Positions 1,482-6,120 of a stretch of DNA of 22,157 bases are shown here, piece by piece. The first letter of the stretch is position 1, and each line of letters opens with the position of its first letter. Source of the DNA: a virus; the IMG/VR virus record IMGVR_UViG_3300032087_000946, positions 1 to 22,157 of that record; one strand, 5' to 3'. The notes under the pieces were generated by a model. It saw only the letters and a program-made list of their open reading frames with translations. It had not been told where the DNA came from and ran no database searches. Position numbers and translations under genes: made by a program.

Positions 1482-2066
1482 TTATACGCTCCATTGAGAG
1501 GCCATTGCCTCAGCTATTCCAGTGTATGTCTCTGATCTGATTTTCCAGCGATCAGCACTTGGCGGCAGCATGTGTATCCTCTGCGCCTCTTTCTTGGGTA
1601 GTGTGCGCCAAACGTCTTCCACATCGTTTGTGGGCACTAATGGGGGTAGATTGTGAAGCCAAAGCCCTGTTTTTTTGCTTTCGGGGTGGCCAAATTGGTA
1701 CGGCTGTACGTATTGGGTAGGTTTAATGGGTAGTACGCCAACGGGATTCTCAAACGCTACGCGGGGCGCGTGTTTCTTTGCGTGTTCATATAGGGCTAGT
1801 GTCCAATCAATTGAATCTAGGCGGTCTTGATGTTTGGGCATTCCTTTGCCGTACCATCTATTGCCTGACACAGCTAAAGCGGTGCATGGGGGGTGCATAA
1901 TGATCAAATCCCAGCCCTCAGCTATTACGGGCCAACAGTCGCCCGTGTAGTGGTAGTCTGTCAGATTGTCTGAGGGTAACAAGTCGCAGCTCCATGCGTC
2001 ATGACCAAGGACGCGGAAAGCCTCCCTTACCTTCCCGCTGTACTCGCAAGCAATCAATACTTTCAT
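1482..2066 (-). CDS. phage mini cytosine-C5 DNA methyltransferase-like protein
   Basis: A 194-residue Rossmann-type protein resembling the short cytosine-C5 methyltransferase-like proteins of phages. Visible motifs in order are MKVLIACEYSG (1-11, SAM-binding motif I-like, with Glu8-Tyr-Ser-Gly), SCDLLPS (26-32, acidic residue after the second strand), WDLIIMHPPCT (52-62, motif IV with candidate catalytic Cys61) and FENPVG (105-110, motif VI-like, ENP in place of ENV). A recognisable target-recognition domain is missing; the enzyme is about half the length of cellular m5C methyltransferases. It would methylate phage or host cytosines, for example against restriction, but proteins of this type may be divergent and activity is unproven. 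It overlaps the upstream gene by ATGA and lies in the leftward cluster. A second, different mini methyltransferase lies at 4061-4663. Confidence 0.7.
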   Translation of the reverse strand: MKVLIACEYSGKVREAFRVLGHDAWSCDLLPSDNLTDYHYTGDCWPVIAEGWDLIIMHPPCTALAVSGNRWYGKGMPKHQDRLDSIDWTLALYEHAKKHAPRVAFENPVGVLPIKPTQYVQPYQFGHPESKKTGLWLHNLPPLVPTNDVEDVWRTLPKKEAQRIHMLPPSADRWKIRSETYTGIAEAMASQWSV

Positions 2067-3423: not shown

Positions 3424-3435
3424 TCGTCAATACTG

Positions 3436-3524
3436 TATGGATAACCAGGTAAGTAACCTGTGCATAACCCTGTGGATAACCATGTTGATAAGCTGGGGAA
3501 AAGTTGTGCATAACCTGTGGATAA
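3436..3524. repeat. array of six DnaA-box-like repeats
   Basis: Six 9-mers lie in one orientation. TGTGCATAA (3459, 3505) and TGTGGATAA (3471, 3516) are four exact complements of the DnaA box TTATNCACA. TATGGATAA (3436) and TGTTGATAA (3483) each have one mismatch. Start-to-start spacings are 23, 12, 12, 22 and 11 bp, close to one or two helical turns, so the sites face the same side of the DNA. The 60 bp that follow hold a C7 run, a TATATATAT stretch (3559-3567) and an A9 tract (3577-3585), which could unwind easily. The gap 3424-3587 has no convincing gene. It may be a replication origin, a DnaA-titrating or regulatory site, or a packaging site bound by terminase. Confidence 0.75.
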
Positions 3525-3587
3525 GTAGACCCCCCCTTCCGAGGCGCGTGACGTGTTGTATATATATGTCCCCCGCAAAAAAAAATT

Positions 3588-3791
3588 ATGACAGTTACTA
3601 AGATACGCCCCGACATAGAAGATGCCATAGAAGACGCTACAAAGCATTCTAAGGACCATATACTGATAGTGGTAGAGGATAGTGGGGTTAGCTTCAAAAG
3701 CTCCTTAAACGACAAAAACAGCGTATTCTACATTGAATTATGTAAACAATTGATATTAGAGGACTGGCTATGTGGGAACAGTACCAAATAG
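3588..3791 (+). CDS. hypothetical protein, 67 aa
   Basis: A 67-residue protein beginning MTVTKIRPDIEDAIEDATK, with a helix, a strand (HILIVVEDSG), a polar loop and a final helix (VFYIELCKQLILEDWL). The family is not recognised. The ATG has no Shine-Dalgarno; it follows an A9 tract at 3577-3585, which may act as an A-rich ribosomal protein S1 site. Upstream reading in frame stops at 3549-3551 with no other ATG or GTG, so this start is the only ordinary one. It overlaps the next gene by 22 nt. The run of nine A could also allow polymerase slippage, but it lies outside the coding part. Existence as a gene is likely, because it fills the space and the next genes chain onto it. Confidence 0.5.
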   Translation: MTVTKIRPDIEDAIEDATKHSKDHILIVVEDSGVSFKSSLNDKNSVFYIELCKQLILEDWLCGNSTK

Positions 3792-3952: not shown

Positions 3953-4064
3953 GCACTTCCCTGAGTCTAATGGTGGTAAGGGCAGCCATGCCCGTAAGTC
4001 TGACAAGAAGACTAGAGAAGCCTTTAAGAAGGGCTATGACGCTATAGATTGGACTAAGAAATGA
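3906..4064 (+). CDS. small basic hypothetical protein, 52 aa
   Basis: A 52-residue, strongly basic protein starting MGQSLVHKLEKKDRDRHF and ending GYDAIDWTKK, with a Gly/Lys-rich centre (SNGGKGSHARKSDKK). AGAGGAT at 3892-3898 gives a good Shine-Dalgarno for its ATG, although the first 47 nt are also coding for the preceding acidic protein in another frame. Its stop overlaps the methyltransferase start (ATGA), fitting coupled translation. The charge suggests nucleic-acid binding, or pairing with the acidic protein encoded just before it; both are guesses. No family is recognised. Confidence 0.55.
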   Translation: MGQSLVHKLEKKDRDRHFPESNGGKGSHARKSDKKTREAFKKGYDAIDWTKK

Positions 4065-4663
4065 GAGTGTTAAACTTATATGCTGGATTGGGCGGCAACC
4101 GTAAACTATGGGATGGGTGCGAAGTTGTGGCCGTAGAAAGCCACGAAAAGATAGCTGAAGTCTATCAGCGTCTACACCCTAACGACACCGTGATCGTCGG
4201 AGATGCCCATGAATACCTACGACAACACTTTAGGGACTTTGATTTCATCTGGTCTAGCCCTCCATGCCCGACACACTCCAAAATGGCAAAGGCTACACGC
4301 CACAAAAACCGCAACTATCCCGATATGTCTCTGTATCAAGAGATATTATTCCTACAGCATTTTTACAAGGGAAACTGGGTGGTTGAAAACGTAAAGCCAT
4401 TTTATGACTTTTTGGTTGAGCCTACTGTTACTGTTGGCCGTCACTGCTTTTGGTCTAACTTTGACTTTAAAGCTGATGATGTTAAGCGCCCCGACAACTT
4501 TATTAATCTAGCTAATCTAGCCGGTAAACGCGCCTTAATGGATTGGCTTGATATACACTATGAGGAGAACATCTACTACAAGGGGAATCATTGCCCTGCG
4601 CAGATTCTCAGGAATTGTGTACACCCTAAACTTGGGCTTCAGATATACGAGCAAGCTATATGA
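4061..4663 (+). CDS. phage mini cytosine-C5 DNA methyltransferase
   Basis: A 200-residue enzyme that should transfer a methyl group from SAM to C5 of cytosine. Motifs in order are NLYAGLGG (5-12, SAM-binding motif I), the acidic end of strand 2 (VVAVES, Glu26), VGDAHEY (46-52, motif III), WSSPPCPTHS (64-73, motif IV with catalytic Cys69), VVENVKP (107-113, motif VI), GRHCFWSNF (motif VIII-like) and a C-terminal RNCVHPKLGLQIYEQ (motif X-like). It is roughly half the usual length and has almost no target-recognition domain, as in known short phage enzymes. ATGA overlaps join it to both neighbours, so it is co-translated with the large terminase; methylation of packaged or replicating DNA is a reasonable inference. 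It differs clearly from the leftward methyltransferase at 1482-2066. Confidence 0.8.
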   Translation: MRVLNLYAGLGGNRKLWDGCEVVAVESHEKIAEVYQRLHPNDTVIVGDAHEYLRQHFRDFDFIWSSPPCPTHSKMAKATRHKNRNYPDMSLYQEILFLQHFYKGNWVVENVKPFYDFLVEPTVTVGRHCFWSNFDFKADDVKRPDNFINLANLAGKRALMDWLDIHYEENIYYKGNHCPAQILRNCVHPKLGLQIYEQAI

Positions 4664-6120
4664 GCCAAATAGAATACAACCTAATGCCACAGGGCCAGGT
4701 TCTACAGGACTTTGCTGACTGTAGGGCTAGAAACTCCTTTATCATGGGGCCACTCGGCTCTGGTAAGACCGTTCAATGCATCCTTAAACTGTTCGACTTG
4801 ATGTGTGAGCAGGAACCTGTGTCTGACCCACAACATAAGAACTATGGTGTGCGCTTATCCCGTATAATCGCAGCCCGTAACACTTACTCTGAACTGTTCT
4901 CTACCACGATTAAGGACTGGCTAGAGATACACGGTGAGCTAGGGGACTTCAAACAGGGTAATAAGGAGCCTCCTACGCACTTCATTAGGTTTAATTTAGA
5001 GGATGGTACGAAGGTAGAGTGTGATGTCGTGTTTATCGCATTTGATCGCCCTGAACACGTTAAGAAGGCTAGGGGTATTCAGACTACATGGGTGTGGTTA
5101 AACGAGACAAAGGAGCATTCTAAGGCTGTTTTAGACATGCTGGACCTAAGACACGGCCGTTATCCCTCCCCAAAAGAAGGATCGCGTCCTACACATCATG
5201 GGATCATTGGTGATAGTAACGCCCCTGACGAAGACCACTGGTATTTTAAACTAGCAGAGATAGAGCGCCCTGAAGATTGGTCATTTTTTAGGCAACCTGG
5301 CGGTGTATTCAAGGACGGCGAGGACTGGAAGGTCAATGATGACGCTGAGAACCTGATCAACTTACCCCAAGACTACTACAAACGTGGCCTAAACGGTAAG
5401 ACTGACGACTGGATCAAGGTTAATCTCGCTAATGAATACGGCTTTGTGTCTAACGGTAAGCCTGTTCACCCCATGTACACCGATTCTGTACACTGTCAGC
5501 ACCTAGACTTTGAACCGTCCAAGGACTATCCCATTGTCCTCGGCTTTGACTTTGGCCGTACACCGGCCTGTGCATTCTTACAACGAACCTCTATAGGAAG
5601 GTGGGTGTGTTTTGATGAGATGGTACTTACCGATTCAGGTGCAGTGGATTTTGCTCCGACACTCAAGCGCTATATTGAGGAGATGTACCCAGACCATGAG
5701 TTCAAAGGATGGGGCGATCCGAGTGGACAGAACAAAAATCAATCAAACAGCGAAACCCCATTCCAAATCATGCGGGCGGCCGGCATACCCTGTCAGCCCA
5801 CCCAATCGAACGATCCACTGAAACGTAGAGCAGCCCTAGAAGTGCCCATGAAAGAGATGTGCATGGACGGTAAGCCGCGATTCACTGTCCTACCCAAAGC
5901 CTCAATGATACGTAAGGGGTTACAGGGTGGCTTCTGCTACCGCAGAGTACAGACAACCGGAGAGAGATACACTGACGAACCGGACAAGAACGAGTATTCA
6001 CACCCCGTAGAAGCCCTAGAATACGCTTTACAGGGCGAAGGTGAGGGCAGACAGGCACTAGGACGGTCTGGCAAGTTCGACAAGCCTGTAACAGCTAAGG
6101 TTGGCTTTAGTGTCTTCTGA
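4660..6120 (+). CDS. terL: terminase large subunit
   Basis: A 486-residue packaging motor that moves DNA into the prohead by ATP hydrolysis and cuts the concatemer. The N-terminal ATPase shows GPLGSGKT (30-37, Walker A) and WVWLNE (144-149, Walker B with catalytic Glu149). The C-terminal RNase H-like nuclease begins at VLGFDFGRTP (293-302, metal ligand Asp297), with WGDPSGQ near 355 supplying another acidic residue and HPVEALEYAL near the end. The length fits the family (T7 gp19 is somewhat longer). The ATG overlaps the methyltransferase stop by ATGA. Placing it before the portal differs from T7, where terminase genes are last, and is more like other podovirus groups. Confidence 0.93.
   Translation: MSQIEYNLMPQGQVLQDFADCRARNSFIMGPLGSGKTVQCILKLFDLMCEQEPVSDPQHKNYGVRLSRIIAARNTYSELFSTTIKDWLEIHGELGDFKQGNKEPPTHFIRFNLEDGTKVECDVVFIAFDRPEHVKKARGIQTTWVWLNETKEHSKAVLDMLDLRHGRYPSPKEGSRPTHHGIIGDSNAPDEDHWYFKLAEIERPEDWSFFRQPGGVFKDGEDWKVNDDAENLINLPQDYYKRGLNGKTDDWIKVNLANEYGFVSNGKPVHPMYTDSVHCQHLDFEPSKDYPIVLGFDFGRTPACAFLQRTSIGRWVCFDEMVLTDSGAVDFAPTLKRYIEEMYPDHEFKGWGDPSGQNKNQSNSETPFQIMRAAGIPCQPTQSNDPLKRRAALEVPMKEMCMDGKPRFTVLPKASMIRKGLQGGFCYRRVQTTGERYTDEPDKNEYSHPVEALEYALQGEGEGRQALGRSGKFDKPVTAKVGFSVF

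Follow-up and report, generated by a model that had tools for sequence, protein, structure and literature searches.

The closest precedent for the repeats described here is the injection stop signal of phage T5, in which DnaA boxes have been reported (Heusterspreute 1987 and Davison 2015, as cited in PMC13250531). Both combine DnaA boxes with repeats in non-coding DNA, which in T5 lies near a genome end. However, the T5 signal has inverted repeats and palindromes, a terminal repeat of about 10 kb and a two-step entry of the DNA, whereas the window (the whole stretch of 22,157 nucleotides analysed, IMG/VR virus record IMGVR_UViG_3300032087_000946, a fragment) carries a compact array in one orientation beside terminase genes. 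datA, the E. coli locus at which DnaA is titrated and inactivated and which requires IHF, resembles the array as a cluster of DnaA boxes outside oriC and a plausible sink; it is chromosomal, whereas all boxes of the array have one orientation and follow each other in 11/12-bp steps. The DnaA-reactivating sequences DARS1 and DARS2 are also intergenic clusters of DnaA boxes, with core boxes in defined opposed orientation. DARS1 is located in the uvrB promoter region, where LexA sites are also present (PMC5835720, PMC6015884). The DARS core is small and comprises three boxes, of which two must have a set orientation; the array, with six boxes on one strand, is not built in this way. High-affinity TTATCCACA boxes are shared with the gammaproteobacterial oriC, from which the array differs by a GC-rich spacer, by the lack of a DUE on the expected side (in E. 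coli oriC, the AT-rich part is on the other side of the R1 box than here) and by a phage-type initiator in a relative. Short repeats (CCTAAAG) are also found next to the terminal repeat of T7. They are direct repeats at the concatemer junction, an area in which DnaA-like repeats occur in Berlinvirus and Przondovirus; however, the T7 motif is different. Searches of the open-access literature revealed no earlier account of DnaA-box arrays next to terminase genes of phages; the only precedents to emerge were the T5 injection stop signal, mentioned in passing in PMC13250531, and one phage origin predicted by software.

The initial annotation of the window described six boxes with spacings of 23, 12, 12, 22 and 11 bp, and their positions were confirmed, with four exact boxes and two with one mismatch, all on the minus strand (Table 1). 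Several of these 9-mers fit TTATNCACA (TTWTNCACA), which places the array among DnaA-box clusters by its sequence. The whole window contained five exact TTATNCACA boxes, compared to 1.00 +/- 0.84 in 100 shuffles, none of which reached five. The chance expectation was thus 1.00 rather than the 0.7 exact boxes first estimated, and the array is far above chance within the window, as had been claimed. One exact box, TTATTCACA at 181-189 on the plus strand, had been overlooked when the rest of the window was inspected by eye; it probably occurs there by chance. This box sits within a metallophosphoesterase gene.

The placement of the boxes on one face of the helix was correct for neighbouring boxes, which are nearly in phase, but not for the first and last box, which are out of phase: their starts are 80 bp apart, or about 7.6 turns at 10.5 bp per turn, so that the phasing drifts along the array. 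Because degenerate units occupy both gaps of about 22 bp, it is more accurate to speak of an array of some eight units of 11/12 bp. The sequence that follows is not AT-rich at once, as had been stated, since a C7 run and a GC-rich stretch come before TATATATATG, C5 and A9 (3530-3587).

Table 1. Features at and around the array; positions are those of the window.
Feature	Position	Strand	Remarks
DnaA-box-like array	3436..3524	-	six 9-mers; the + strand reads as about eight 11/12-bp units CCTGTGNATAA
Box 1, TTATCCATA	3436..3444	-	one mismatch; overlaps the LexA-like palindrome
Box 2, TTATGCACA	3459..3467	-	exact
Box 3, TTATCCACA	3471..3479	-	exact
Box 4, TTATCAACA	3483..3491	-	one mismatch
Box 5, TTATGCACA	3505..3513	-	exact
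Box 6, TTATCCACA	3516..3524	-	exact; 5 bp short of the C-run
Degenerate unit, CCAGGTAAGTAA	3445-3456		in the first ~22-bp gap
Degenerate unit, GCTGGGGAAAA	3492..3502	+	in the second ~22-bp gap; identical in L040, L041 and L112
LexA-like palindrome, degenerate, CTGTATGGATAACCAG	3433..3448	.	exact CTGT-N8-ACAG at the same place in relatives
Conserved module: C7, CCGAGGCGCG, TATATATATGTCCCCCGC, A9TT	3530..3587	+	58 bp; pattern matched at 87 viral loci
Putative small terminase subunit, 105 aa	3106..3423	+	assigned by position alone
Large terminase subunit (TerL)	4660..6120	+	phrog_2, E=1.9e-13; 52% identical to TerL of Burkholderia phage BcepC6B

On one side of the array, which takes up all the space between them, is the gene of the 105-aa protein and on the other a non-coding module that is strongly conserved after the putative small terminase gene in uncultured phages (the window and loci L043-L119). 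Across these loci the module consists of a C-run, TATATATRTCCCYC and A8-9TT, and it could be a packaging site or a promoter. The possibility that it is an element known from isolates was rejected, since no significant match was obtained in cultured phages. In most carriers the array adjoins the C-run of the module at a distance of about 5-7 bp. Searches of Pfam, PHROG and NCBIfam gave no match for the 105-aa protein and the PDB no informative one, and its predicted structure (mean pLDDT of 57) was too poor for a fold search. An Rfam search also found nothing. Exact LexA-like palindromes of the CTGT-N8-ACAG type were seen beside the array or in its place, just upstream of the C-run, at loci L048, L054, L040, L041, L029, L104, L116 and L119, and a related repeat, TGGATGGATATACAG, was seen at other loci. 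Among the other genes of the window, that at 4061-4663 (plus strand) matched a C-5 cytosine DNA methylase in Pfam, and that at 1482-2066 (minus strand), which had no Pfam match, appeared methyltransferase-like by eye.

Relatives of the 105-aa protein are encoded at 40 loci, and the module was present at 74 distinct related loci, in which an array was called when at least three boxes lay on the same strand with at most one mismatch each. By this definition 13 of the 74 loci carry an array, compared to none when the sequences were reversed as a control. Comparison of the gap, a check of the kind that the initial annotation had proposed, showed that the 9-mers are largely kept in L040 and L041, that the period but not the sequence is kept in the L088, L099 and L070 subgroup, and that most of the 74 loci have no array. 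The six boxes and most of their sequence are retained in L040 (spacings of 22, 12, 12, 22 and 11 bp) and L041, even though the 105-aa proteins of these loci are only about 40-44% identical to that of the window. Identity between the window and L041 is 81% in the array, 56% in the preceding gene, 64-65% in the following segments and 84% in TerL. The boxes are partly retained in L112 and L304. In the subgroup the array keeps its place and period while its sequence has drifted to TTACACACA or TTACGCACA, which deviate from the DnaA consensus, and L104, L116 and L119 have a longer array in the opposite orientation. L003, in contrast, encodes a neighbouring protein that is 97% identical and has no array, with only about 13 bases before the C-run. 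By these comparisons the array is an accessory element with a fixed location, which some diverged phages have retained while others have gained or lost it. L304, in which the array also abuts the module, is a MAG contig filed under Piscirickettsiaceae with a TerL 86% identical to that of the window and a further array of the same kind; it is the sole hint to the host of the phage.

The phage had been called T7-like by the initial annotation, a label that found no support as far as replication is concerned. DNA polymerase A and DnaB helicase were not found in nine partial relatives, and the relative G004 encodes lambda-type replication and recombination genes, namely a RecE-like exonuclease, Sak, an O-like replication initiator and NinG. 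The O-like initiator gene of G004 contains three 23-bp iterons with a ATACCCTCCCCA core (L268, 3040-3117), as in lambda, and is thereby a candidate for an origin of the lambda type. Given this initiator with its iterons, the array is probably not the main origin, which probably lies in the initiator gene, beyond the fragment analysed here.

We then scanned viral contigs for three copies of the motif in one fixed pattern geometry. Three copies of TTATNCACA with a G or a C at position 5 were found in at least 120 viral contigs. Substitution of position 3 by G (TTGTNCACA, which we take to be the actinobacterial DnaA box) gave 25 contigs, while its substitution by C (TTCTNCACA) and that of position 4 by C (TTACNCACA) gave four contigs each and the reversed motif gave one. 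Among the matches listed, 102 of 121 arrays are intergenic, and their second spacing peaks at 11-12, 21-22 and 33-34 bp, consistent with a phasing of about 11 bp, it being understood that the linkers are partly dependent, that homologous loci are not independent and that 34 is the upper limit of the pattern. The carriers include the phrog_2 terminase family, to which the window belongs, the phrog_38 family, the T7-like Berlinvirus and Przondovirus, T5-like phages, Arthrobacter phages and microviruses; the terminases beside the arrays are unrelated (phrog_2 and phrog_38), and microviruses have none. In the microviruses, which are single-stranded DNA phages, CTGTGGATAA arrays were seen at or near the replication initiator gene (L257, 1520-1561, and IMG/VR loci L151, L213 and L231). 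Plasmids yielded one record at E<=0.01 compared to 50 phage records, in databases that differ in size and make-up and with many near-identical phage records. The recurring viral motif matches DnaA-box specificity, which supports the identification of the boxes, and with carriers so unrelated a shared host ligand is a simpler explanation than many phage proteins.

A G/C run of at least five was seen within 40 bp of 32 of 88 distinct arrays (among L127-L246), compared to 4.6% of random positions. The association of arrays with G/C runs is real but modest, because the intergenic control reduced the contrast to 43% of arrays with a run within 100 bp versus 17.8% of random intergenic positions.

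Several cultured phages carry arrays in terminal repeats or near their genome ends. That of Bf23 lies in the annotated left terminal repeat and that of Siara, with only one exact box, in the PhageTerm repeat region, whereas in Tiff81 some 50-100 bp separate the array from the right end. In Berlinvirus and Przondovirus the array comes after a left-end sequence (TCTCACAG or TCTCATAG) similar to those of T7 and KP32, and ahead of GTGTCCCTATCTGTT, a sequence close to the right-hand border of the terminal repeat in T7. T7-like phages can thus also do without an array, because no boxes were found in the first 800 bp of T7 or in the left end of KP32. For the phrog_38 family, a single query gave too few loci to test the distance to TerL, and the figures are those of all family members. 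All 33 distinct arrays are upstream of TerL, versus 20.9 expected from intergenic positions, and 26 of the 33 are on its strand, while their distance to TerL is barely shorter than that of random intergenic positions (mean rank of 0.40). Contig ends were taken as a proxy for a cos site; some fall within 200 bp of the module, spread over positions and with no sharp clustering. The positions in cultured phages and in the phrog_38 family favour a role linked to genome ends or to packaging, spare non-coding space near the ends being an alternative reading.

The explanation that we favour, with slightly less than even confidence, is that of an accessory array bound by host DnaA, for which the role of a decoy is the most likely; among the functions first put forward, a DnaA sink survived best. 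Binding of host DnaA to the array is probable, and, given such binding, the chance of a decoy role would be even or slightly better. Host DnaA would occupy the phased boxes, probably cooperatively, and with many phage copies per cell these would outnumber the good chromosomal boxes; DnaA would thus be tied up and re-initiation of the host damped, while the phage would replicate from its own O-like initiator. In E. coli, the TTATNCACA sites in which N is C, A or G number only 78 (PMC5835720), and, according to PMC12371093, datA and the DARS provide a large share of its DnaA titration power and chromosomal titration now has experimental support. With so few boxes and so large a share at these loci, modest phage copy numbers could matter; by our own arithmetic, about 20 phage copies with four exact boxes each would equal the supply of the E. 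coli chromosome. Against this explanation, the drift to TTACACACA or TTACGCACA in some relatives does not fit the DnaA consensus, the near-fixed abutment to the module would not be needed by a mere sink, and most relatives manage without an array.

In the main rival explanation, the DnaA-bound array would act locally at the packaging or genome-end junction, as a nucleoprotein block guarding the end, pausing, marking the terminus or stopping DNA entry, the last having been proposed for the T5 injection stop signal. This is possible though rather unlikely: the fixed abutment to the module, the arrays in terminal repeats or near ends of Bf23, Siara, Tiff81, Przondovirus and Berlinvirus, the upstream position of all phrog_38 arrays and the T5 injection stop signal with its reported DnaA boxes (PMC13250531) point to such a role, whereas contig ends show no sharp accumulation around the module, non-coding space at the termini may merely tolerate extra sites, and L003, on a similar backbone, and the left end of KP32 have no boxes. 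Binding of the repeats by a phage protein, the small terminase or another, with a chance likeness to DnaA boxes, would agree with the adjoining putative small terminase gene and with the drift to TTACACACA under a constant period in one subgroup. It is nevertheless improbable, and the terminase binding site proposed at the outset is weakened, since the gene of the 97% identical protein of L003 is followed by no array, this motif also turns up next to unrelated terminases and in terminase-free microviruses, and the motif variants show a DnaA-like selectivity.

A regulatory region, in which DnaA and LexA (at the adjoining palindrome) would switch transcription of the terminase operon, is distinctly unlikely. 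The array is intergenic and upstream of the small genes and TerL, relatives have exact CTGT-N8-ACAG palindromes beside it or instead of it, and E. coli uvrB is jointly controlled by DnaA and LexA (PMC6015884). However, no sigma-70 promoter-like site was found within 3424-3590 (array and module), which speaks against the promoter switch suggested earlier, and most relatives have the module without the array. A DnaA-dependent replication origin, also among the earlier suggestions, has become very improbable: the box cluster does adjoin TATATATATG and an A-tract, and PolA and DnaB were not found in the nine partial relatives, but a relative has the O-like initiator gene with internal iterons, only 13 of 74 loci carry an array, the GC-rich C-run separates the boxes from the AT-rich part, this part is on the wrong side of the boxes compared to R1 of E. 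coli oriC, and the GC skew shows no clear switch near 3.4 kb. Neutral expansion of a tandem repeat is scarcely credible; it would account for the variable number of units and for gains and losses between close relatives, but not for the recurrence in unrelated genomes of a DnaA-type 9-mer, when the reversed motif does not recur, nor for an array better conserved between the window and L041 than the flanking genes.

Since arrays occur in unrelated phages, including cultured phages of Klebsiella, Shigella, Escherichia and Enterobacter, the idea that phages bind DnaA with them can be tested at once in laboratory hosts. It is also conceivable, if on the unlikely side, that unrelated phage families have convergently placed DnaA-box arrays at the junction of the terminase genes or of the genome ends. 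A DnaA nucleoprotein filament would there guard the end, stop entry or mark the cut, whether or not the array also sequesters DnaA. If so, filaments of this kind at DNA ends would be a general way, undescribed so far, in which phages exploit the host initiator. Bacterial replication has its central switch in DnaA, and arrays of DnaA sites would enable phages to influence the host cell cycle cheaply and without a protein of their own.
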